Source: Gammaproteobacteria bacterium (GTDB taxonomy: Bacteria > Pseudomonadota > Gammaproteobacteria > Steroidobacterales > Steroidobacteraceae). From it: a stretch of 54,347 nt of DNA. The notes beneath the pieces were generated by a model that saw only the letters and a list, made by a program, of their open reading frames with translations, did not search any database and was not told where the DNA came from. The translations under genes and the position numbers were made by a program. Where the stretch lies: NCBI GenBank assembly GCA_027315105.1, contig DAHUYP010000075.1, positions 1 through 54,347 of the forward strand, given 5' to 3'. Below, one piece after another: positions 3,656 through 54,347 of this stretch (position 1 is the stretch's first letter; every line of letters begins with the position of its first letter).

Positions 3656-4659
<1,004 letters not shown>

Positions 4660-6126: not shown

Positions 6127-7140
6127 TCATCCGCCGGCGCGGCGCGGCGCCCCGCCGCGCGCCCGCGTGCGCTTGCCGGCCAGCGCCTCGAGCACGGCGC
6201 GCAGGTCGGCCGGCAACGGCGCGCTGAAGCTCTGTTCCGTGCCACTGTCGGGCCAGACGAATGAGCAGCTGTGCGCATGCAGGAACATGCGCTTGAGCCC
6301 GAGCGCCGCGAGTTGCTCGTTGAGGCTCTTGCTGCCGTATTTGTCGTCCCCGGCCACGGGGTGGCCGCAATGCGCGGCGTGCACGCGAATCTGGTGCGTG
6401 CGGCCGGTGTGCAGCGTGGCCTCGATCAGCGATGCGCGAGTCCCGTAGGCCTCGACCAGACGGAACTCGGTCAGCGCCCGCTTGCCGTGCGAGTCCACCT
6501 TCACGGTGCGCTCGCCGCCGACCCGCAGGTCGGTGCGCAGCGGGGCATCGATGCGCTTATGGCCGAGATTCCAGCGCCCGGCCACGAGCACCAGATACTT
6601 CTTTTGCACCGCACCATCGCGCAGCAGCGCATGCAGCGTGCGCAGTGCCGAGCCGCGCCGTGCGACCAGCAGGATGCCGCTGGTATCGCGATCGAGGCGA
6701 TGCGCGAGCTCGAGCGTCTCATCCGGCCGCGACGCGCGCAGGGCCTCGATGATGCCGAAGGACAGTCCGCTGCCGCCATGCACCGCCACGCCGGCCGGCT
6801 TGTCCAGTACCAGCAGGCGCTCGTCCTGGTGGATCACGGCGCGCTCCAGGGTCTGAACCAGGCTCGCGGGGGCCCGGCGCGGGCTCTCGGGCATGCTCGT
6901 GAGCACCGGCGGCAGGCGTACGGTGTCGCCGGCCGCCAACCGCTGCTCGGGGCTCGCGCGCCGCCCGTTGACCCGCACTTCGCCGCGGCGAATCAGCCTG
7001 AAGACGCGGCTGCGGGGCACGCCGGGCAGCTGTTGGGCAACCACCTTGTCCAGACGCTGGCCCTGCTGCTCGGCGTCGATCTCGAGGTGGCGAACGGCCG
7101 ACCTCGGGGCGCTGCGGGCGATCGGTTCGGTCTCGGACAA
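6127..7140 (-). CDS. rluC: 23S rRNA pseudouridine synthase RluC
   Basis: A 337-residue RluA-family pseudouridine synthase. An S4 RNA-binding domain (residues about 26-90, GQRLDKVVAQQLPGVPRSRV) precedes the catalytic domain with HRLDRDTSG, whose Asp attacks the target uridine. RluC modifies U955, U2504 and U2580 of E. coli 23S rRNA. The start is TTG 7140, preceded at good spacing by GAGGAG; no ATG is available. The Arg/Gly-rich C-terminus (RTRARGGAPRRAGG) is a lineage extension. It is divergent from rne, as in E. coli. Confidence 0.95.
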   Translation of the reverse strand: MSETEPIARSAPRSAVRHLEIDAEQQGQRLDKVVAQQLPGVPRSRVFRLIRRGEVRVNGRRASPEQRLAAGDTVRLPPVLTSMPESPRRAPASLVQTLERAVIHQDERLLVLDKPAGVAVHGGSGLSFGIIEALRASRPDETLELAHRLDRDTSGILLVARRGSALRTLHALLRDGAVQKKYLVLVAGRWNLGHKRIDAPLRTDLRVGGERTVKVDSHGKRALTEFRLVEAYGTRASLIEATLHTGRTHQIRVHAAHCGHPVAGDDKYGSKSLNEQLAALGLKRMFLHAHSCSFVWPDSGTEQSFSAPLPADLRAVLEALAGKRTRARGGAPRRAGG

Positions 7141-7220
7141 GATGCTCTCCTCGGCGGCGGCCGATGGCGTCCAACCCGCGCGCCGCGTTGACCCAAGGCG
7201 CCCCAGGCGGCTTTAAGTGT

Positions 7221-7249
7221 TTGTTTCCAGTGACGTGTAACGCTATAAT
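7221..7249 (+). promoter_or_regulatory. Sigma70 promoter of rne
   Basis: TTGTTT (7221-7226), a 17-nt spacer and a perfect TATAAT (7244-7249). The predicted start near 7256 leaves a leader of about 387 nt before rne, close to the long leader (361 nt) known for E. coli rne. Confidence 0.75.
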
Positions 7250-7255
7250 CGCGCC

Positions 7256-7642
7256 GTTGCCCCACGCCGGACATCGCAATCTCCAGGAATCGGGTCCGGC
7301 ACCATGGCAATGAGACTGCGGCCAAGCGCCGCATGGTAGTTGGTCCTCGGAATCGAGGCCATCGCGCATAAGTCGGCCGATCCGGTCCGCGCTCGCCCAG
7401 TTGCTCCTCCGAAAGTTCGAGCCCACGAGCGTGCCGCCGGTCAGTGGACCTCAAGGTCTCCAGGCGCGCCGCCAAGAATGGCGGCCATGAGTCAATGACG
7501 TCAATGACCACAGAGACGATGACCAATCGGACGCGCCAATCGATCTTCGGGTGTTCCCCTGCCCACGGCGGCTCCGTGAAGGTGCCCCCACACGTGCACT
7601 TTCCGGTAACCACGGCCGCTCATCCAATTTTGGCAGAGGCAA
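7256..7642 (+). other. Long structured 5' leader of rne
   Basis: No gene is seen here. It contains inverted repeats GCCGGAC/GTCCGGC (7266-7272, 7294-7300) and GCCGCC-aagaat-GGCGGC (7468-7485), a tandem 9-mer GTCAATGAC twice at 7491-7508, and an AT-rich patch TCCAATTTTGGCAGAGGCAA just before the start. In E. coli the rne leader folds into hairpins through which RNase E controls its own mRNA. An equivalent role is inferred from position, length and structure; no sequence homology is claimed. Confidence 0.5.
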
Positions 7643-10162
7643 ATGAAAAGAATGTTAGTGAACGCGACCCAGCAGGAAGAGCTGCGGGTCGCGATGGTCG
7701 ATGGACAGAAACTGTATGACCTGAGCATCGAGATACCGTCGAGGGAACAGAAGAAGGCCAACATCTACAAGGCCCGCATTTCTCGCGTCGAGCCGTCGCT
7801 GGAGGCGGCGTTCGTCGACTACGGGTCGCAGCGACACGGCTTCCTGCCGCTGAAGGAAATCTCGCGCGACTATTTCCGCACCCAGCCGCAGGGCCGGCTC
7901 AACATCCGCGAGCTGGTCACCGAGGGTCAGGAACTGCTGGTCCAGGTCGAGAAGGAAGAGCGCGGCAACAAGGGCGCCGCGCTGACGACCTTCATCAGCC
8001 TGGCGGGCCGCTTCCTGGTGCTGATGCCCAACAACCCGCGCGCCGGTGGCGTATCGCGCCGCATCGAGGGCGAGGACCGCGACCAGATGCGCGAGGTCAT
8101 GGGCCAGCTGCAGGTGCCCGAGGGCATGGGAGCGATCGTGCGCACCGCCGGCGTCGGCCGCTCGGCCGAGGAACTGCAGTGGGACCTCGATAACCTGCGC
8201 ACCCAGTGGGACGCCATCGCCGAGGCGGCCAACAGCCGCGGCGCACCGTTCCTCGTCTACCAGGAAAGCGACGCGGTGACGCGCGCGCTGCGCGATTATC
8301 TGACCGACGATATCGGCGAGATTCTGGTCGACGACGAGGGCGCGTTCCAGAAGGCGATGGAATACATGCAGCGCTTCATGCCCAACGATGCGCAGCGCAA
8401 GCTCAAGCTCTACGCCGACGACATCCCGCTGTTCACCCGCTATCAGATCGAGAGCCAGATCGAGTCGGCCTACGCGCACAAGGTGCAGCTGCCCTCGGGC
8501 GGCAGCCTGGTGATCGACTATACCGAGGCGCTGGTGTCGATCGACATCAACTCGGCACGGGCCACGCGCGGCAGCGACATCGAGACCACCGCCTGCAATA
8601 CCAACCTCGAGGCGGCGGAGGAGATCGCGCGCCAGCTGCGCATCCGCGACATCGGCGGCTTGATCGTGATCGACTTCATCGACATGGAGTCGCAGAAGAA
8701 CCAGCGCGAGGTCGAGGACCGCCTGCGCGATGCGATGAAGATGGACCGCGCCCGCATCCAGATCGGACGCCTGTCGCGCTTCGGACTGCTCGAGATGTCG
8801 CGCCAGCGCCTGCGGCCGAGCCTCGGGGAGTCGAGCCATCTGGTCTGTCCGCGCTGCAACGGCATCGGCAGCATCCGCAGCATCGAGTCGATGACGCTGT
8901 CGATCCTGCGCCTGATCGGCGAGGACGCGCGCAAGGACCGCACCGCTCGCATCATCGTGCAGGTACCCGTGGACGTGGCCACGTATCTGATCAACGAGAA
9001 GCGCGACGCGCTGCGCACGCTCGAGGACAAGAGCCGGGTGCAGATGACGATCGTGCCGAATCCGCACATTCAGACGCCCGAATATTCGATCCGGCGGGTG
9101 CGCGACGACGAGGCATCGTTGTCCGAGAACACGCAGATCAGCTACCAGATCGCGGCCGCGCCCGCCGCGGCCGATCTGGCCGAGCGCGACAAGAAGGCGC
9201 CGGCCGAACAACCCGCCGTGGCAGCCCTGCTGCCCAAGACCGCGGCCCCGGTGGTGAGCGCTGCCGCGGCTCCGGTCGCGAGCGCGCAGACGGCTGCGGC
9301 CGGCGAGCGGCCCGCGGCGGGCGGTTTCTGGGAGCGCCTCAAGGGCTGGTTCGGCACGCCGGCAGTATCCGCGCCGACAACCGCGCTCGCAGTCGCCGCG
9401 GCGACGACCGAGGAGCCCAGGCGCGAACCGCGTCGCAGCGGCAACGAGCGCGGCGAGCGTGGCGGCGCGCGCGGACGAGAGCGGCGGCCGGAACGCCGCG
9501 GCGACGGCGGCCGGCGCGAGGACTCACGGCGCGATGCCTCGCATCGTGACGACAGCCGCCGTGGGCGCGACGAGCCGCGCCGGGATGCGCGCCGCGATGA
9601 GTCGCGCCGCGAGGAACCGCGGCGCGAGGAGCCTCGCCGCAGCGAAGTGCCGCGCGAGCAGGAAGCGCCGCGCGACGCGGCGTTCGAGGCGCCGCAGCCG
9701 GATCAGGGCGGCGAGCTGGCCGCTCGGAGCGAAACGGAGCGACCGCGCGGCGAGCGCCGCTCACGGCGCGGCGGGCGCCGGCGCCGTCGCGGCGGCGGGG
9801 GCGGGGGTGGCCTTCGTGAAGGCGGCCCGCGCGAGCCGCAAGGCCAGGGCGGCTACCAGAATGGCGGCTCGCCGGCCGGTGAGAGCGAAACCGGCCGCGA
9901 CATGGGCGCGGAGGCCCCTCGACCGGCTCCAGCGTTCTCCCCGTCCGCCACCGACTACAGCTGGGGGGCGGGCCATGCGGAGACCGCGAGCGCGCCGCCC
10001 GCGGCCGCTCCTGGCGGGCACGGCGACAGTCATGCCGCCGGCGGTGCCGAAGCCGCGGGCGGCACCGAGCAGCCGCCGCCGTCAGCGCCGGAGCAGAAGC
10101 CTCACGTCGTGTGGTCTTCCGCGCCCGTCGATCCGGGCCTCGGCAATCGGCGCGACGAGTAG
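7643..10162 (+). CDS. rne: Ribonuclease E
   Basis: An 839-residue RNase E, the main endonuclease of mRNA decay and the scaffold of the degradosome. The N-terminal catalytic half has the S1 domain (about 36-118), catalytic Asp301 (SIDINS) and Asp344 (VIDFIDM), and the Zn-link cysteines 402 and 405 in CPRCNG, each shifted by two from E. coli. The C-terminal half (from about 515) is low-complexity: an Ala-rich linker, an Arg/Glu/Asp-rich stretch with repeated RREEPRR-like units (about 590-680) likely to bind RNA, a Gly-rich run, and a conserved-looking end HVVWSSAP. It is shorter than E. coli RNase E (1061 aa). AGAGGCAA precedes the ATG. Confidence 0.96.
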
Positions 10163-46481: not shown

Positions 46482-47237
46482 TCATCCTGCGGCCGCCAGC
46501 GCCGCGCGCGCGGTCGCGAAGGTCGCCTTGAGCGATTGCTCCATCTCCCGCTGCAGGGCCTCCAGTGCGGCGGGATCGAGCGTGCGCGGCACTTCGCGCG
46601 CCGGGCCGACGGCCACGGCGATGCGCGCGAACGGGCGCGGCAGCACGAAGCGATCCCAGTGCACCAGCGCCGCGCTGGAGGCCGCGTAGGCCAGCGGTAC
46701 GATCGGCCGGCCGGACATCTGCGCCAGCAGGATCGCTCCGGGCTTGAACCTGAAGGGCGGCCCGCGCGGCCCATCGGGGGTGATGACCGGGGAGACCTGC
46801 TCGCGCATCAGGGCCTGGAAATACTCCTTGAGCGCCAGCGCCCCGGTATGCGAGGAGGAACCCCGGATCACGTGCGCACCGGCGCGGCGCACGATCATCG
46901 CCCCGAGCTCGCCATCGACCGACGGGCTGATCAGGAAGCCGACGCGCAGCCGGCGCTGCCGCTGCAGCAGCAGCAGGTAGCGGGCGCCGAACAGCTGGTG
47001 CTGGTGCCAGTAGCAGGGCAGGAACGAAGGCCAGCGCGCCAGCACCGCATCCAGGTGTTCCTCGCCGACCACCGCCACGATGCGGCAGCTCGCCCACCAC
47101 AGCCGCACCAGCGCCAGGATCAGCGGCGCGGCCAGCCGATACAGCGCCCGGCGAACCGGTCCCATGCGCCGGCCGGAGCGGGTGCTCTGCCGGTAGATGG
47201 TGTTGCGCAACGTGCCGCTGGGCTCGTCTTCGCTCAT
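46482..47237 (-). CDS. DUF374 lysophospholipid/LPS acyltransferase-like protein
   Basis: A 251-residue membrane-associated acyltransferase of the DUF374 family, related to PlsC-type enzymes. A hydrophobic segment is near residues 35-50. The family features are LPCYWHQHQLFGARY (with the H residues in place of HX4D), LISPSVDGELGAMIVRR, VIRGSSSHTGALALKE and ITPDGPRGPPFRFKPGAI. It likely transfers an acyl chain to an envelope lipid. It is divergent from the FAAL gene across a 104-nt gap and may belong to that cluster. Confidence 0.85.
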   Translation of the reverse strand: MSEDEPSGTLRNTIYRQSTRSGRRMGPVRRALYRLAAPLILALVRLWWASCRIVAVVGEEHLDAVLARWPSFLPCYWHQHQLFGARYLLLLQRQRRLRVGFLISPSVDGELGAMIVRRAGAHVIRGSSSHTGALALKEYFQALMREQVSPVITPDGPRGPPFRFKPGAILLAQMSGRPIVPLAYAASSAALVHWDRFVLPRPFARIAVAVGPAREVPRTLDPAALEALQREMEQSLKATFATARAALAAAG

Positions 47238-47324
47238 GGGCGCGCGGCATTCTGCGCGAACGATGCCGGGGCCACAAGGTGGGCGCCGGGCGCGCGGCCC
47301 TGCAGCGCCGCCCGTGCATTCGGC

Positions 47325-47330
47325 TAGAAT
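47325..47330 (+). promoter_or_regulatory. Candidate -10 for the FAAL gene
   Basis: TAGAAT ends 11 nt before ATG 47342; no good -35 and no Shine-Dalgarno are visible. The minus-strand counterpart for the DUF374 gene has TTGTGG-N17-CAGAAT ending 12 nt before its ATG. Confidence 0.35.
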
Positions 47331-47341
47331 CGCGCGTTCAC

Positions 47342-49342
47342 ATGAATGCCACCAGCAAGAATACCGCCGGGGCGCTGGCCGCCGCTGGCACCCTGACCGC
47401 GCTCATGGAAGCCAACCGCGGGAGCGGGCGCGGCCTGACCTACCTGGAAGGCGAACACGAGACGCGCACGCTCGCCTTCGGCGAGCTCCATGAGCGCGCG
47501 CTCGGCATCCTCTATCGCCTGCAGCGCCTCGGCGCGCGTCCCGGCGACAAGCTGATCCTGTTCCTGAGCAGCAACGAGCCGTTCATCGACGCGTTCTGGG
47601 CGGCGCTGCTCGGCGGCATCATTCCGGTACCGATCGCGCCGGGCATCAGCGACGAGCACCGGCACAAGCTGTTGCGCATCGCCCGCAAGCTGCAGGCGCC
47701 GTACATCTATACCGAGCAGCGGCTGCTCGACCGCATCGGCAGCTTTGCGGCCGAGCACGGCGAGCTGGCCGCCTACGAGTCGCTGCGCACGCGCGCCTTC
47801 CTGGTCGACGATCTGAGCGAGCTCGGCCGCAGCGGCAAGCTGCACCGCGCCCAACCGTCGGACGTGGCTTTCATCCAGTTCTCGTCCGGCTCGACCAGCG
47901 AGCCCAAGGGCGTGGTACTCACGCACGCGAATCTGCTGGCGAACATTCGCGGCGCGACCGAGATCGCGCACTTCGGCGAGCACGACGTCAGCCTGTCGTG
48001 GATGCCGCTCACGCACGACATGGGCCTGATCGGCTTCCATCTGGTCATGTTCGCCAACCGCGTGCATGCCCACCTGATGCCGACCGAGCTGTTCGTCCGC
48101 CGGCCGCTGCTGTGGCTACAGCTGGCCGCGCGGGTGCGCGCCACCATCCTGTGCTCGCCGAATTTCGGCTACCGGCACTACCTCAAGGTGCTCGGCGAGC
48201 GCTCGCCGGGCGAGCTCGACCTCTCGTGCGTGCGCCTGATCTTCAACGGCGCCGAGCCCATCAGCGTCGAGCTGTGCGAGCAGTTCCTGCAGCGGCTCGC
48301 GCTCGCCCGGCTCGCGCCGAACGCCATGTACCCGGTCTACGGCCTGGCCGAAGCCTCGCTCGCGGTGAGCTTTCCCGAGCCCGGGACGCACTATCGCGCG
48401 ACCAGCTTCGACCGCCATCAGCTCGGCGTCGGTGCGGCGCCGCAGCCGCTGGCCGCGAACCATCGCGACGCGCTGCAGCTGGTCAGCGTCGGGCGCGCGA
48501 TCCCCTACTGCGAGCTGCGCATCGCCGACGACGCCGATCGGCCGCTGCCGCCGGAGCACGTGGGCCACATCCAGATCCGCGGCGACAACGTCACCGGCGG
48601 CTATTACGAGGATCCGGCCACCAATGCGGCGAGCTTCACCGCCGACGGCTGGCTGCGCACCGGCGATCTGGGACTGCTGCACGAAGGCGAGCTCTACATC
48701 ACGGGGCGCCACAAGGAGATCCTGTTCGTCAACGGCCAGAACTACTACCCGCACGATCTGGAGCGCATGCTCGAGGACATCCCGCAGCTCGAGCTCGGCA
48801 AGGTCGTGGTCGCCGGCGCGCGCCCGGCCGGCGAATCGGCGGAGCAGCTGCTGGTGTTCGTCCTGTACCGCGGCGAGCTGGCGCCGTTCCTGCCGCTGGC
48901 GCGCCAGGTGGCGCGGCGCATCGGCGAGCACGCGGGCCTCGAAGTGGACGCGGTCGTGCCGGTGCGGCGCATCCCCAAGACCACCAGCGGCAAGATCCAG
49001 CGGCATCTGCTCGAAGAGGAATACCTGGCCGGCGCCTTCGATGCCGAGCTGGCCGAGCTCGCGCGGCTGCGCGCCGCGGAGCCGGCCGCGGAGCCGGCGG
49101 GCACTGCGATCGAGCAGCAGCTGCGCAGCATCTGCGAGGCGGCGCTCGACGGCCGCAACATCGATGCCGACGAGAGCCTGTTCGACGTCGGCGCCAGCTC
49201 GCTGAAATTGCTGTCGATCCACGAGAGCATCGAGCGCCTCTGGCCGGGCGTGGTCGATGTCACCGACATCTTCGATCACCCCAGCATCGCCGCGCTCGCC
49301 CGCTTCATCGAGCAGAAGCGCGCGGCGCCGCCCGCGGCATGA
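47342..49342 (+). CDS. Fatty-acyl/aryl-AMP ligase (FAAL class) fused to an acyl carrier domain
   Basis: A 666-residue two-domain protein. Residues about 1-570 are an adenylating enzyme with A3 loop FSSGSTSEPKGVVLTHANL (near 180), the FAAL-type WMPLTHDMGLIGFHL and CSPNFGYRHYL, YGLAEA, and A10 TTSGKIQRHL. Residues about 585-655 are a carrier domain with FDVGASSLKLL: Ser620 is the expected phosphopantetheine site. FAALs pass acyl-AMP to carrier proteins rather than CoA, so this enzyme can load its own carrier. With the chorismatase nearby, 3- or 4-hydroxybenzoate is a plausible substrate, which parallels XanA2 plus XanC in xanthomonadin synthesis; the substrate is inference. The next gene overlaps as ATGA. 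Confidence 0.9.
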   Translation: MNATSKNTAGALAAAGTLTALMEANRGSGRGLTYLEGEHETRTLAFGELHERALGILYRLQRLGARPGDKLILFLSSNEPFIDAFWAALLGGIIPVPIAPGISDEHRHKLLRIARKLQAPYIYTEQRLLDRIGSFAAEHGELAAYESLRTRAFLVDDLSELGRSGKLHRAQPSDVAFIQFSSGSTSEPKGVVLTHANLLANIRGATEIAHFGEHDVSLSWMPLTHDMGLIGFHLVMFANRVHAHLMPTELFVRRPLLWLQLAARVRATILCSPNFGYRHYLKVLGERSPGELDLSCVRLIFNGAEPISVELCEQFLQRLALARLAPNAMYPVYGLAEASLAVSFPEPGTHYRATSFDRHQLGVGAAPQPLAANHRDALQLVSVGRAIPYCELRIADDADRPLPPEHVGHIQIRGDNVTGGYYEDPATNAASFTADGWLRTGDLGLLHEGELYITGRHKEILFVNGQNYYPHDLERMLEDIPQLELGKVVVAGARPAGESAEQLLVFVLYRGELAPFLPLARQVARRIGEHAGLEVDAVVPVRRIPKTTSGKIQRHLLEEEYLAGAFDAELAELARLRAAEPAAEPAGTAIEQQLRSICEAALDGRNIDADESLFDVGASSLKLLSIHESIERLWPGVVDVTDIFDHPSIAALARFIEQKRAAPPAA

Positions 49343-50154
49343 GCGGCGGCGCGGACAGCGGCGATTTTCCCGCGCCCGCGGACGACGAGCGGCTGCGGCG
49401 CGGCGCACAGCTGCTGGTCGCCCTGCGCCGCGCCTGTCCGCGGCCGGTGTCGCTGCCGGCCGAACTCGCCCCGCGCAGCGAGGCCGAGGCCTATCGGCTG
49501 CAGCGCGCGACCGCGCACGCCCTCGGTGCGCGCATCGGCGGCTGGAAGGTCGCCATGAACGATCCCATCAGCGGCAGCTGCGCGCCGGTGTACGCCGCCG
49601 ACTTGCAGCGCTCCCCGGCCTGCGCCGCTTTCCCCATAACCGCGCGCCCGGGCATCGAACCGGAGATCGCCTTCAGCCTGGCGCACGACCTGCCGCCGCT
49701 CGCGCCGGGGCAGCGCTATGGACGCGCGCAGGTCATGGAGGCGATCGGTGCCGCGCATGCGGCGATCGAGATCGTGGTCAGCCGCTTCCAGAGCCACGAG
49801 GGCGCCGCGCTGCTGGATCGCCTGGCCGACAACATCAGCAACGGCGGGCTCGTGGTCGGCCCGCCGTGCCGCGACTGGCGCCGGCTCGAGCTCGGCGCGC
49901 TGGCGCTGCGGCTCACGCTGCAGGCGTCCGGCGCGGCCGCAAGCGTGCACGAGGCGCGCGGCGGGCATTCGCTCGGCGACCCGTTGCTGCCGCTGCTCTG
50001 GCTCGCCAATCAGCGCGCGCAGCACGGCGCGGGGCTGCGCGCGGGCGAGATCGTCACCACCGGCAGCTGTGCCGGGCTGCATTACGCCGCATCCGGCGCG
50101 CGCGTCAGCGCCTGGTTCGAGGGGCTGGGAAGCGCGGAGCTGGTGCTTGGCTGA
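49339..50154 (+). CDS. FAH/MhpD-like 2-keto-4-pentenoate hydratase family protein
   Basis: A 271-residue protein of the hydratase/decarboxylase branch of the fumarylacetoacetate hydrolase superfamily. Typical elements are GWKVAMNDP, the metal ligands in PGIEPEIAF and AAIEIVVSR, DNISNGGLVVGPP, HSLGDPLLPLLWLAN and GEIVTTGSCAG. Such enzymes act on dienoic keto acids in aromatic catabolism; there are no meta-cleavage genes nearby, so a role in building or editing an aryl or polyene chain is possible but unproven. It overlaps the FAAL gene by 4 nt and ends 75 nt before the flavin enzyme. Confidence 0.85.
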   Translation: MSGGADSGDFPAPADDERLRRGAQLLVALRRACPRPVSLPAELAPRSEAEAYRLQRATAHALGARIGGWKVAMNDPISGSCAPVYAADLQRSPACAAFPITARPGIEPEIAFSLAHDLPPLAPGQRYGRAQVMEAIGAAHAAIEIVVSRFQSHEGAALLDRLADNISNGGLVVGPPCRDWRRLELGALALRLTLQASGAAASVHEARGGHSLGDPLLPLLWLANQRAQHGAGLRAGEIVTTGSCAGLHYAASGARVSAWFEGLGSAELVLG

Positions 50155-50193
50155 GCCGCCGGCGGCAGCGCGTGCGCGGGCCACTGCGGCCGC

Positions 50194-50203
50194 GCAAATT
50201 TGC
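50194..50203. promoter_or_regulatory. Palindrome GCAAATTTGC upstream of the flavin enzyme
   Basis: A 10-bp perfect palindrome followed by TAAAAT (50215-50220), which ends 9 nt before the ATG. It might be an operator over a short-leader promoter; there is no other support. Confidence 0.25.
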
Positions 50204-50229
50204 CGGCGCACAGTTAAAATCCGCTCCGC

Positions 50230-51558
50230 ATGACACACGACGAATCGGCCGCCGAGCGACGCAGCGGCGCGGCGCGGCAGCAAACGGATGTGCTGGTCAT
50301 CGGCGGCGGCCCGGCGGGCTCCACCGTTGCCGCGCTGCTGGCGCGGCGCGGCCACCAGGTGACGCTGCTCGAAAAGGACCGCCATCCGCGCTTCCACATC
50401 GGCGAGTCGCTGCTGCCGGCCAACCTGCCGCTGTTCGAGCAGCTCGGGGTGGGTGACGAGATACGCGCGATCGGCATGCTCAAGCGCGGCGCCGAGTTCA
50501 TCTCGGCCTGGGACGGCCGGCAGCAGGAGTTCCGCTTCGCGCACGCCTGGGACAAGTCCATGCCGTACGCCTACCAGGTGCGCCGCTCGCAGTTCGACGA
50601 GATCCTGCTGCGCAACGCGGCGCGCGCGGGCGCGCACGTGGCGGAAGGCTGCCGCGTGCAGGCGGTCGAGCACGCGGGCGAGCGCGGCGCGGTCCACGTC
50701 CGGGCGCAGCACGACGACGGCCGCAGGCTGGATTGGCAGGCGCGCTTCGTGGTCGATGCCTCCGGCCGCGATACCGTCCTCGCCACCCGCCTGGGGCTCA
50801 AGCGCCGCAATCCGAAGCACGCCAGCGCCGCCATCTTCGGTCACTACAGCGGCGCCGAGCGCCATCCGGGCGAGCTCGAGGGGCACATCTCGATCTACTG
50901 GTTCGATCACGGCTGGTTCTGGTTCATCCCGCTGCACGACGGCGCCACCAGCATCGGCGCCGTGGTCTGGCCGTACTATCTCAAGAGCCGCACGGTGCCG
51001 CTCGAGCGGTTCCTCGAGGCGACCATTGCGCTGTGTCCGCCGCTGGCGGCGCGGCTCAGGAACGCCAGGCCGATCAGCCCGATCGAGGCGACCGGCAACT
51101 ATTCCTACAGCGCGACGCGCACGCACGGCGCCAACTACCTGCTGCTCGGCGACGCCTATGCGTTCATCGACCCGGTGTTTTCCTCCGGCGTGATGCTGGC
51201 GATGCACAGCGCCTTCGTCGGCGCCCGGACCGTCGATGCCTGCCTGCGCGCTCCGGCACGATCGCGGGCGGCGCTGCGGCGGTTCGATCGCGCGGTGCGC
51301 CGCGGCCCGCGCGAGTACTCCTGGTTCATCTACCGGGTCACCTCGCCCACCATGCGCGAGCTGTTCCTGGGACCGCGCAATTGGCTGCGCATGCAGGAAG
51401 CCCTGCTGTCGGTGCTGGCCGGCGACATCTTCGGCCGCACTCCGATCTGGCCCTCGCTGCGTGCCTTCAAGGCGCTCTACGGTCTGATATCCCTGCTGCA
51501 CCCGCTGCGCAGCAGCCTGGCGGCACGCCGCCGCAGCCTCAACGTCCGGCCGGCATGA
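50230..51558 (+). CDS. FAD-dependent oxidoreductase with flavin halogenase signatures
   Basis: A 442-residue flavoprotein. The FAD-binding motif VLVIGGGPAGSTVAALLARRG is at residues 21-41. GESLLP follows, Lys85 sits in MLKRGAEF (the position of the halogenase Lys), and W229FW231FIP234 matches the WxWxIP motif of flavin-dependent halogenases. The later LLGDAYAFIDPVFSSGV is the usual flavin-site end. The layout fits the phenolic-type halogenase branch. Xanthomonadins, aryl polyenes of related bacteria, are brominated, and a halogenase-like gene is part of their cluster. Some relatives with the WxWxIP motif are not halogenases, so activity is uncertain. Confidence 0.85.
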   Translation: MTHDESAAERRSGAARQQTDVLVIGGGPAGSTVAALLARRGHQVTLLEKDRHPRFHIGESLLPANLPLFEQLGVGDEIRAIGMLKRGAEFISAWDGRQQEFRFAHAWDKSMPYAYQVRRSQFDEILLRNAARAGAHVAEGCRVQAVEHAGERGAVHVRAQHDDGRRLDWQARFVVDASGRDTVLATRLGLKRRNPKHASAAIFGHYSGAERHPGELEGHISIYWFDHGWFWFIPLHDGATSIGAVVWPYYLKSRTVPLERFLEATIALCPPLAARLRNARPISPIEATGNYSYSATRTHGANYLLLGDAYAFIDPVFSSGVMLAMHSAFVGARTVDACLRAPARSRAALRRFDRAVRRGPREYSWFIYRVTSPTMRELFLGPRNWLRMQEALLSVLAGDIFGRTPIWPSLRAFKALYGLISLLHPLRSSLAARRRSLNVRPA

Positions 51559-51604
51559 GGCGCCACATGCGGCCGTGCATGAGCCCGCCGACACTCGCGC
51601 GCTG

Positions 51605-52630
51605 ATGGCAACGCCCCCCGCGCTGCAGATCGACTACCCGCGCCTCGCCGACATCCGCCAGCAACCCGAGGCGTGGTGGCAGCAGGTGCTGGCGGTGATC
51701 CGATTCGATCGCGACGCACTGGCGCCGCCGCTGCCGGACATACCGACCGCCGAGGTCATGACGCCGGTGCTCGGCGGCGCCGACAGCGCCGTGGAGCTGT
51801 GGCGCGTCGCCGGTCCGATGCATTCGGGCCGGCGCGGCCGCGTGCGCTATCGCCACAACGGCCGGCTGCTGTTCGCGAGCCTGAGCGTGCCGGAACAGGA
51901 GTTCCTGCAGCCCGCCGCAGGCGGCGAAGCCGCGGCGCTGCGGCAGGCGACCGAGGCGGGCTACCGCGAGATGTTCGGCGCGCTCGAGGAGCTCGGCTTC
52001 CCGTATCCGCTGCGCATCTGGAACTTCCTGGCCGAGATCAACGGCGCCACCGAGGACGGCGAGCGCTATTGGCACTTCAACGGCGCGCGCCAGCAGGCCT
52101 TCATCGGCCGCCGGCGCAGCGTCAGCGGCGACGTGCCGGCCGCCAGCGCCCTGGGTGCCGGGAGCGCCAGCCCGGTCACGATCTACTGCATCGCCGGCGA
52201 GCGCTCGCCGATTCCGCTCGAGAATCCGCGCCAGCGCAGCGCCTGGGAATATCCGCCGCAATATGGCCCGCACAGCCCGACCTTCTCGCGCGCCTGCATC
52301 GAGAACGCCGGCACGCAGACGTTGTTCATCTCCGGTACCGCCAGCATCGTCGGCCACGAGACCGCGCACGCCGGCGATGAGCGCGCGCAGACCCGTGAGA
52401 CGCTGCGCAACATCCGCGCGCTGCTCGGCACCGCCAACCGGCGGGTCGGCAGCGAGCGCTACGCCCTCGAGCAGCTGCGCTACAAGGTGTACGTGCGGCG
52501 ACCCGAGCACCAGAGGAGCATCGATCAGGAGCTGCGCCGCGTGATCGGCGCAGCCGCGCCGGTGCTGTATCTGCAGGCCGATATCTGCCGGCGCGACCTG
52601 CTGGTCGAGGTCGAAGCCGTCGGCACCTGA
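51605..52630 (+). CDS. Chorismatase (XanB2/FkbO-like), hydroxybenzoate-forming
   Basis: A 341-residue protein of the chorismatase family, which has a YjgF-like trimeric fold and splits pyruvate from chorismate. The C-terminal part FISGTASIVGHETAHAGDE followed by QTRETLRNIRALL, and the middle RIWNFLAEINGATEDGERYWHFN, are typical of FkbO, Hyg5 and XanB2. XanB2-type enzymes give 3- and 4-hydroxybenzoate, the starter of xanthomonadins and a ubiquinone precursor. Which subtype this is cannot be told here. The start 51605 (ATG) or 51575 (GTG) is uncertain; neither has a good Shine-Dalgarno. Confidence 0.88.
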   Translation: MATPPALQIDYPRLADIRQQPEAWWQQVLAVIRFDRDALAPPLPDIPTAEVMTPVLGGADSAVELWRVAGPMHSGRRGRVRYRHNGRLLFASLSVPEQEFLQPAAGGEAAALRQATEAGYREMFGALEELGFPYPLRIWNFLAEINGATEDGERYWHFNGARQQAFIGRRRSVSGDVPAASALGAGSASPVTIYCIAGERSPIPLENPRQRSAWEYPPQYGPHSPTFSRACIENAGTQTLFISGTASIVGHETAHAGDERAQTRETLRNIRALLGTANRRVGSERYALEQLRYKVYVRRPEHQRSIDQELRRVIGAAAPVLYLQADICRRDLLVEVEAVGT

Positions 52631-52672
52631 GCGGGCCGCTGCTGCGGCGACGGATGCGGAGGAGCGGGAATC

Positions 52673-52735
52673 ATGCGCAAAATTGCCGATCGCGCGGCTG
52701 ATCGGCGCTGGCTCACGGATGGTGAACCGCGATGA
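52673..52735 (+). CDS. Possible 20-residue coupled peptide ORF
   Basis: A 21-codon frame (MRKIADRAADRRWLTDGEPR) with a strong ribosome-binding site GGAGGAG ending 10 nt before the ATG, and a stop codon overlapping the next start as ATGA. It resembles neither a transit nor a known domain. It could be a leader peptide that brings ribosomes to the acyltransferase start, or simply a chance frame. The downstream gene itself has no obvious Shine-Dalgarno. Confidence 0.4.
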   Translation: MRKIADRAADRRWLTDGEPR

Positions 52736-53541
52736 ATGAAGTGCGCGCCGTCGGCATGGCATCGCCGTTCAGGGCGCTGCTGAAGGCCGCCTATGAGTAT
52801 GCGGCCCTGTACGGCTCACTGCTGCTGCTGGGAATCATCTGCCTGGGCTGGTCGCTGCTGGCGCTGCCGCTGTCTGCGCTGCTGCCGCGGCGCTGGGCCA
52901 TCGGCTTCGGCCGCTACGGCATCATGGCCGGGTTTCGCATCTACGGCCATTGGCTGCAGCTGCTCGGCGCCTATCGGCTCGACCTGTCGGCGCTCGACGT
53001 GCTGCGCTCGGACGAAGCGCTGATCCTCGCCCCCAATCACCCCTCGCTGATCGACGCACTGCTGATACTCTCACGGCACCCCAATCTGGCCTGCGTGATG
53101 AAATCCGAGCTCATGGGCAGCATCTTCCTCGGTCCGGGCGCGCGCCTGGCGCGCTACATCCGCAATGGCTCGCCGCGGCAGATGGTGCGCGAGGCGATCG
53201 CGGACCTCGAGCAAGGCGGCGGGCTGCTGCTGTTTCCGGAAGGCACGCGCAGCGTGCGCGCGCCGTGCAACGCGCTCAAGCGCAGCATCGGCGTGATCGC
53301 CAAGCACGCGCGCGTGCCGGTGCAAACGCTCGTGATCGACACCGACTCGCCGTTCCTGGGCAAGGGCTGGCGATTCTGGATGCGGCCCTCGCTGCCGATC
53401 ACGTATCGCGTGCGGCTCGGACGGCGGCTGGGGCCGCCGCAGGACGTGGATGCATTCATGGCGGAACTCGAGCGTTGCTACCGCCAGGAACTGCACAGCG
53501 GACCGGGCGCGCGCTGGCCTGGCAGACCGGCGCGCCAGTGA
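52732..53541 (+). CDS. PlsC-family 1-acyl-glycerol-phosphate-type acyltransferase
   Basis: A 269-residue acyltransferase with an N-terminal membrane helix (about 25-50), the HX4D motif in APNHPSLIDALLI and FPEGTRS. In aryl-polyene clusters an acyltransferase of this kind attaches lipid to the head group or anchors the pigment in the outer membrane. Membership in the cluster is inferred from coupling: it overlaps the glycosyltransferase as GTGA. The C-terminus is basic and Pro-rich. Confidence 0.88.
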   Translation: MNEVRAVGMASPFRALLKAAYEYAALYGSLLLLGIICLGWSLLALPLSALLPRRWAIGFGRYGIMAGFRIYGHWLQLLGAYRLDLSALDVLRSDEALILAPNHPSLIDALLILSRHPNLACVMKSELMGSIFLGPGARLARYIRNGSPRQMVREAIADLEQGGGLLLFPEGTRSVRAPCNALKRSIGVIAKHARVPVQTLVIDTDSPFLGKGWRFWMRPSLPITYRVRLGRRLGPPQDVDAFMAELERCYRQELHSGPGARWPGRPARQ

Positions 53542-54296
53542 GCACGCCCTCGTCAACGCACCTGGTCCTGATACCGAGCTACAACCCCGGACCCAGGGTG
53601 ATCGAGACCGTGCGCGCGGCGCGCGCGCAGTGGAACCCGGTCTGGGTGGTGGTCGACGGCAGCACCGACGGCAGCGCCGCCGCACTCGCGGCGATGGCGC
53701 GCGAGGACCCGGGACTGCGCGTGCTGGCGCAGCCGCGCAATCGCGGCAAGGGCGCGGCGGTGCTGCGGGGCGCGCTGTTCGCCGGCGGCGAGGGCTATAC
53801 CCATGTGCTGACGATGGATTCGGATGGGCAGCATCCGGCCGCCGATATCGGCCGCTTCATGCGCGCCTCGCTGGCCGAGCCCGCGGCGCTGATCCTGGGC
53901 GAGCCGCAGTTCGACGCCACCGCGCCGGCGCTGCGCGTGCGCGGCCGCAGGATCTGCAACTGGTTTGCCAATCTCGAGACCCTGTGGACCGGCATCCACG
54001 ATTCATTGTTCGGCTTTCGAGTCTATCCGATCGAACCGCTGGTGCGCGTCATGCGCCGCCAGCCGTGGATGCGGCGGTTCGATTTCGACGCCGAGGTGGC
54101 CGTGCGCCTGTGCTGGCGCGGTTTGCCGGTGCGCAATCTGCGCGCGCCGGTGCGCTATTTCCGCCCCGAAGAGGACGGCGTGTCGCACTTCAATTATTGG
54201 CGCGACAATGCGCTGCTCACCTGGATGCACATGCGGCTGTTCGCCGGCTTCCTGCTGCGCCTGCCGCTGCTGCTGTGGCGCCGCGTGCGCCGCTGA
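53538..54296 (+). CDS. Glycosyltransferase family 2
   Basis: A 252-residue GT-A glycosyltransferase. It has LIPSYNPGPRV at the start, VVVDGSTDGS, RNRGKGAAVLRG, the metal-binding DxD region MDSDGQHP and DSLFGFRVYP, and a hydrophobic C-terminal segment rich in Leu (RLFAGFLLRLPLLLW). These resemble the DPMS-like GT2 in aryl-polyene clusters. It starts with GTG 53538, overlapping the acyltransferase stop. The remaining 51 bases to the window edge hold no complete gene. Confidence 0.9.
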   Translation: MSTPSSTHLVLIPSYNPGPRVIETVRAARAQWNPVWVVVDGSTDGSAAALAAMAREDPGLRVLAQPRNRGKGAAVLRGALFAGGEGYTHVLTMDSDGQHPAADIGRFMRASLAEPAALILGEPQFDATAPALRVRGRRICNWFANLETLWTGIHDSLFGFRVYPIEPLVRVMRRQPWMRRFDFDAEVAVRLCWRGLPVRNLRAPVRYFRPEEDGVSHFNYWRDNALLTWMHMRLFAGFLLRLPLLLWRRVRR

Positions 54297-54347
54297 GGCG
54301 CGCCCGCGCCGGCGCCCGCGGACCGCTCGCCCCGGGCCCGGCATCGC

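Follow-up and report, generated by a model that had tools for sequence, protein, structure and literature searches.

The stretch analysed here, called the window, is the 54,347-nucleotide contig DAHUYP010000075.1 (C20) of a Gammaproteobacteria bacterium of the family Steroidobacteraceae (assembly GCA_027315105.1, genome G000). Four genes at its right-hand end (50230-54296) form the 5' portion of an aryl-polyene (APE) cluster of the xanthomonadin/arcuflavin type that is interrupted by the contig end; they encode a halogenase-like enzyme (HAL), a chorismatase (CHO), an acyltransferase (AT) and a family 2 glycosyltransferase (GT2). Immediately to the left, at 46482-50154, lie genes for a DUF374 protein, a fatty acyl-AMP ligase fused to an acyl carrier protein (FAAL-ACP) and an MhpD-like hydratase (HYD). 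We consider it very likely that these are two joined units, the beginning of an APE cluster and an older FAAL-ACP lipid locus. The cluster itself belongs to an already known type, that of the xanthomonadin-like yellow pigments, and adjoins a separate lipid locus; FAAL-ACP and HYD are not APE genes by ancestry but part of that older locus, and gene order indicates that they are probably neighbours of the cluster rather than its aryl loading step.

The cluster was followed beyond the contig end in two sibling genomes, G009 and G004, where DUF374, FAAL-ACP, HAL, CHO and GT2 stand in the same order as in the window. The left flank is shared as well, its PAS-GGDEF-EAL gene being 92-93% identical in G009 (L020, L021) and G004 (L022, L023), while CHO and GT2 are 65-68% and 78-80% identical, respectively, to the sibling copies. 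After GT2 both siblings continue with an acyl carrier protein (ACP), a 458-residue AMP ligase, a FabA-like dehydratase (DH), a lipid-A-type acyltransferase, a LolA-like protein and an MMPL protein (Pfam searches on the G009 proteins), and further on with an alpha/beta hydrolase, a polysaccharide deacetylase, a methyltransferase, a ketosynthase (KS), a second KS resembling a chain-length factor (CLF; PF13723), a gene at a second DH position (without a Pfam match in G009) and a ketoreductase (KR). The gene behind KR, fl315, encodes a lipid-A-acyltransferase-like protein and forms the right flank. An earlier note on this DNA had called a possible aryl-polyene cluster and proposed to look for KS, KR, DH, LolA-like, MMPL and ACP genes to the right of 54.3 kb; all of them are present at the syntenic site in the siblings, which bears out the call, but they were not read in the window's own assembly. 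Because of the synteny and the 65-84% protein identity with G009 and G004, chance is an unlikely cause of the gene set. The siblings also carry a MipA gene behind CHO, unlike the window, which has none between CHO and AT; a partial AT was found in G004 and none in G009.

As the window spans the whole of C20, one of 91 contigs, its end is the contig end. The own assembly measures 2.79 Mb and is 86.7% complete, and its fl315 gene lies on another contig (C57, 1426-2349). Positions 69-527 of C57 match G009 from about 240 bp past the KR stop, with the blocks in order (tblastx, E 1.8e-25); these block positions place the first base of C57 about 170 bp past the syntenic KR stop. Matches to G010 and G011 lie further right (626-1341 and 649-1329), and no KR match was found in C57 1-1425. 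By G009 coordinates the segment bracketed by C20 and C57, from ACP to KR, measures about 11.7 kb. An assembly gap between the two contigs probably hides the rest of the cluster, as judged by synteny and not by reading across it.

A CHO search of 60 genomes, among them the window's own, gave matches in 12, of which five belong to the genus (G000, G001, G004, G005 and G009). APE genes occupy the FAAL-ACP site in five genomes, those of the window, G004, G009, G010 and G011. The site reads FAAL-ACP, HAL, GT2, ACP and from the ligase onward in G010 (L179), and FAAL-ACP, AT, GT2 and from ACP onward in G011 (L200); CHO is absent from both, and a halogenase from the latter. The starter of these two may be supplied otherwise, for example by UbiC. 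Their KS-to-KR halves lie next to fl315 on other contigs (L206 and L205, respectively) and are taken to be the other end of the clusters at their FAAL sites. Elsewhere in the genus the cluster is found at different places: HAL, CHO, AT and GT2 are on C10 in G001 and on C38 in G005, the KS half of the latter being on C85, in both cases without FAAL-ACP or HYD beside them, and in G008 and G014 the APE KS and its neighbours are located away from the FAAL site. In G006 the contig stops 435 bp past FAAL-ACP, and no APE KS was found in the genome.

The order DUF374, FAAL-ACP, HYD, fl315, with no APE genes in between, was observed in G002, G003, G012, G014 and G005 (on C59, where FAAL-ACP is split over two frames). 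The ligase-carrier fusion and the hydratase had been the earlier note's grounds for an undescribed APE system; both stand together without the cluster in these five relatives, APE genes occur at other sites without either, and the sibling clusters have an AMP ligase and an ACP of their own, so that neither the case for novelty nor the assignment of the two genes to the cluster is supported. No HYD match was obtained in G004, G006, G009, G010 and G011, and no FAAL-ACP match at E <= 1e-100 in G001. HYD stands beside fl315 in G007 (L061) and G008 (L062), which gave no FAAL-ACP match, and may work independently of FAAL-ACP; G013, where the contig stops at HYD, likewise gave no match to FAAL-ACP.

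A tree of FAAL-ACP (16 rows, midpoint root, G005 left out for its broken gene) placed G006 with the five genomes whose FAAL-ACP site holds APE genes (99/97), and set apart the four FAAL-ACP-HYD genomes without APE at the site (100/100). The most parsimonious history starts from an old FAAL-ACP-HYD-fl315 arrangement in the genus; in a single clade the APE cluster then took up its place between HYD and fl315, and the five members of this clade other than the window lost HYD. The events may also have followed another order. The HYD tree, which held the nine genus copies together at 87/90 only and was mostly unresolved, was not used for timing.

Several observations weigh against two joined units cut by an assembly gap. 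FAAL-ACP, HYD and the APE genes lie on the same strand with short gaps, so that a single transcript is possible, and the start called for the halogenase of G004 overlaps the stop of FAAL-ACP. All NCBIfam models listed for the seven proteins fell short of their cut-offs, and the order of events given above rests on parsimony. Ketosynthase searches of the own assembly returned only a FabF-type gene on C83 and a marginal domain match in the window (4199-4318); as a control, the same search was strong in 8 of 15 genus genomes (492-875 bits, against 153 in G000). An MMPL search of the own genome, run without a control, was empty, and the left end of C57 matches G004 weakly (E 6e-7) and partly over KR.

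The join might have been selected, the APE cluster being kept behind FAAL-ACP as a source of acyl-ACP for acylation of the polyene lipid. The maintenance of the arrangement in the window, G004, G009, G010 and G011 speaks for such a recruitment, as does the overlap in G004; a single shared ancestral insertion would look alike, however, and a conserved element before the HAL start hints at a separate promoter, though a promoter scan found none. We regard recruitment as unlikely. The element, T.TA(G/A)AATC-like (TTAAAATC/CTAGAATC), lies at 50214-50221, its hexamer 6-9 nt before the HAL ATG, and is kept in the window, G009 and G004 against a much less conserved intergenic background. It could possibly be the -10 box of a leaderless transcript. 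A similar element also precedes FAAL-ACP in the window.

Another possibility is that the APE genes of this genome are a truncated, non-functional remnant and that the half from KS to KR is truly lost. The own assembly yielded no APE KS, and MipA is missing between CHO and AT, unlike in G009 and G004. Against a loss, the contig breaks at the gap and C57 begins where the syntenic segment ends, completeness of the assembly is 86.7%, and the four APE genes are open frames, with conserved residues kept in HAL and CHO. We regard a remnant as very improbable. A further account is that of the earlier note, a single undescribed APE system with FAAL-ACP as the loader of the aromatic starter and HYD as an enzyme of the pathway: the shared strand and close spacing, the A-PCP structure of McyG as the nearest solved relative of FAAL-ACP, and the acceptance of aromatic acids by AmbG, also a FAAL-ACP didomain (PMC11837247, in excerpt), are outweighed by the presence of FAAL-ACP in three or more families of the order, by APE neighbours at just one (G010) of the 18 fetched family loci in which FAAL-ACP was called, by the ligase and ACP within the sibling clusters, by the lack of HYD in G004 and G009, and by the core APE genes of G001, which has no FAAL-ACP match, and we consider this account very improbable. 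The case shows how easily genes that merely adjoin a cluster are taken for members of it where a contig ends.

All seven genes, among them every one named in the earlier note, are open frames with family matches in Pfam/NCBIfam profile searches (Table 1). Its observation that no ketosynthase precedes the end of the window also stands, as none was found between 46.4 kb and the end by gene calls, profile searches or the search of the own genome. The first 4 bp of HYD (ATGA) take in the stop codon of FAAL-ACP. For GT2 a GTG start, overlapping the AT stop by 4 bp, is probable, with 53598 as the alternative.

Table 1. Features at the right-hand end of the window, with the profile matches of their products.
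Feature	Position	Strand	Evidence and remarks
DUF374 lysophospholipid-acyltransferase-like	46482..47237	-	PF04028 E 2.2e-18; flank of FAAL-ACP locus
FAAL-ACP didomain ligase-carrier	47342..49342	+	AMP-binding E 3.2e-53, PP-binding E 3.5e-8
MhpD-like hydratase (HYD), FAH superfamily	49339..50154	+	FAA_hydrolase E 1.3e-6
Flavin-dependent halogenase-like enzyme (HAL), arcA-like, first APE gene	50230..51558	+	PF04820 Trp_halogenase E 5.5e-36
Chorismatase (CHO), arcB/XanB2-like	51575..52630 (start maybe 51605)	+	TIGR04444 E 1.9e-61 (below cut-off), PF21168 E 1.4e-28
Phospholipid/glycerol-type acyltransferase (AT), arcD-like by position	52732..53541	+	PF01553 E 9.3e-11
GT2 glycosyltransferase, arcE-like by position	53538..54296 (probable start)	+	PF00535 E 1e-20
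Contig end	54297..54347	.	51 bp beyond GT2 stop

HAL contains the motifs GGGPAG, K85, WFWFIP and FIDPVFSSG, which we take to be the FAD motif, the catalytic lysine, WxWxIP and FxDPxxSxG signatures of flavin-dependent halogenases. Its nearest solved chain is the halogenase 3e1t (E 8.1e-63); the six best chains are halogenases, the seventh a flavoprotein/dehydrogenase. Neither CmlS (203 bits) nor the monooxygenase QhpG (180 bits) attained its NCBIfam cut-off. HAL may halogenate the ring.

CHO is a chorismatase of the FkbO/Hyg5 family by profiles and residues. Its likeness to XanB2/ArcB is by family, the alignment having taken in Hyg5 and FkbO, and residue positions were mapped via Hyg5 with an inferred offset of 9. 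On this numbering CHO has the catalytic Glu345, plus Gly254 and Cys338 as in Hyg5; FkbO has Ala at both of the latter positions, so that class CH-I, that of FkbO, is disfavoured. Gly254 and Cys338 agree with two CH-II residues, and the remaining CH-II position is Ala192. Since this is Ala and not the CH-II residue, CH-III or CH-IV is more likely. All six aligned chorismatases (window, L020, L022, L025, L028 and L027) have Ala here; the first five stand beside APE genes, and none were seen near L027. CHO likely forms 3-hydroxybenzoate (3-HBA), to judge from its family and residues.

For FAAL-ACP the NCBIfam scores were 365 bits with PRK09192 (FAAL; cut-off 600), 320 with PRK07768 (titled CoA ligase) and 178 with PRK06187, and McyG came first among the solved chains at E <= 1e-30, with many FAALs among them. 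The protein appears closer to FAALs than to acyl-CoA ligases, with a fused ACP. HYD matched 22 of 60 genomes at E <= 0.001, and its close group (47-52% identity) consists of eight genomes of the same genus besides the own. K70, E107, E109 and E144, presumably the acidic metal site and the lysine of the MhpD family, are invariant in all nine aligned copies. The nearest solved chains to this alignment are MhpD (E 6e-25); the NCBIfam equivalog of MhpD gave 75.9 bits against a cut-off of 350, which makes HYD a member of the superfamily and not MhpD itself. HYD alone as query over the relatives' contigs found no relative, and the alignment as query found 26 loci, eight of them in the genus genomes already seen. 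The other 18 (L079-L096) gave no FAAL-ACP match, L093 having one gene call and L095 none; judged from the first residues of the neighbouring proteins, their surroundings look mostly catabolic. Eight further loci of the family were without FAAL-ACP except for a weak ligase match in L128 (24%).

The known systems were compared by way of excerpts of the cited papers. In these, XanB2/ArcB make 3-HBA, an AMP ligase of the ArcT or ApeH type activates the aromatic acid and a type II KS/CLF extends it; the acyltransferase, glycosyltransferase, LolA and exporter genes are thought to put the product in the outer membrane (PMC3949708, PMC3691225, PMC8253772). The order HAL-CHO-(MipA)-AT-GT equals arcA-arcB-arcC-arcD-arcE of the arcuflavin genes of Azoarcus (PMC3949708, Table 1), a correspondence by annotation and not by sequence. 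Also by annotation, the arc genes of Azoarcus sp. BH72 share with the siblings an AMP ligase, ACP, DH, LolA, exporter, deacetylase and methyltransferase; they form two unlinked loci, unlike the single block of G009 and G004 (PMC3949708). The window departs from the arcuflavin order, as given there, in the missing MipA and in the adjoining FAAL-ACP and HYD. The clusters of Xanthomonas (xanthomonadin) and Lysobacter enzymogenes OH11 (xanthomonadin-like) share with the sibling clusters the XanB2-type chorismatase, KS with a CLF-like partner, KR, DH, ACP and the LolA-like carrier, but as described in the excerpt the Lysobacter cluster is without the halogenase-like gene present here (PMC3691225). 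The ape genes of Escherichia coli follow the same type II logic (ligase, ACP, KS, DH, KR, LolA-like protein, RND exporter), with 4-hydroxybenzoate via UbiC; no chorismatase or halogenase appears in the table rows consulted (PMC8253772). No paper joining an aryl polyene with a chorismatase or with Steroidobacter was found in the open-licence literature, and the present cluster adds one of xanthomonadin type for a gammaproteobacterial genus. HapA, NocH and AmbG are FAALs fused to an ACP, as in the window (according to the excerpt of PMC11837247); unlike these, the FAAL-ACP studied here has no modular polyketide synthase or non-ribosomal peptide synthetase beside it in the window, and at most of the loci inspected its neighbours are P450, DUF374 and lipid-A-acyltransferase-like genes.

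Taken together, CHO would make 3-hydroxybenzoate, which a dedicated AMP ligase and ACP, encoded on the unassembled right-hand part, would load. KS/CLF, KR and DH would then build the polyene, HAL possibly halogenating the ring, and, by analogy with characterised clusters, AT, GT2, LolA and MMPL would join the chain to a lipid and deliver it to the outer membrane. At 46482-50154, FAAL-ACP is predicted to activate a fatty acid and to keep the acyl group on the fused ACP for modification of a lipid, a step that an adjacent P450 probably performs in most relatives. In one clade of the genus, the APE cluster lies between the FAAL-ACP locus and its right flank fl315.

The part of the locus that deserves attention as unexplained is the pair of P450 and FAAL-ACP, which may matter more than the pigment cluster. 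FAAL-ACP was found in 151 of 217 genomes of the family, in 21 of 25 genera (E <= 1e-100). Coordinates were listed for 143 of the 151 and compared with those of 133 P450 genomes, five second-copy P450 rows being left out. Among the 125 genomes listed with both, the P450 lies directly upstream on the same strand in 111, with a median gap of 11 bp, and the remaining 14, five of them in the window's genus, keep the two apart. Eighteen of the 143 genomes had no P450 at the cut-off, and eight P450 genomes had no listed FAAL-ACP. Outside the family, in the same order, FAAL-ACP occurs in 72 genomes (recounted by hand) and the P450 in 45, directly upstream in 44 of these; in the other 27 no P450 was found at the cut-off, and as the outside P450s are about 39-45% identical to the query, some may be missed.

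Twenty loci of the family were fetched. Gene calls put the P450 immediately upstream of FAAL-ACP in 14 of them, and tblastn added two. FAAL-ACP was called in 18; the gene caller missed it in L174 and L178, where tblastn recovered both genes. DUF374 lies at most six genes from FAAL-ACP in 14 of the 18 loci, a phosphopantetheinyl-transferase-like gene is nearby in six of 18, and lipid-A-acyltransferase-like neighbours occur at some. The occurrence of the pair in at least three families, often among acyltransferases, points to a common lipid modification. Because the P450 stands beside a FAAL fused to its carrier, it may oxidise the carrier-bound fatty acid. A wider proposal would be an undescribed, order-wide lipid pathway in which the P450 oxidises acyl-ACP and DUF374 or a lipid-A-type acyltransferase transfers the product, wired in this genus to the APE cluster to give a polyene lipid whose acyl chain is made specially for it, HYD replacing or complementing the P450 step; we consider it decidedly unlikely. 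No description of the pair was found in the open-licence literature, which is weak evidence of absence, and the main text of a FAAL review, as far as consulted, contains no occurrence of P450 or hydratase (PMC11837247). In the window's genus the P450, where found, lies away from the FAAL-ACP locus, the own copy being at C91:12112-13422 (locus L209:9110-10429). An example of the usual arrangement is L166, where the P450 at 6729-8036 is followed by FAAL-ACP.

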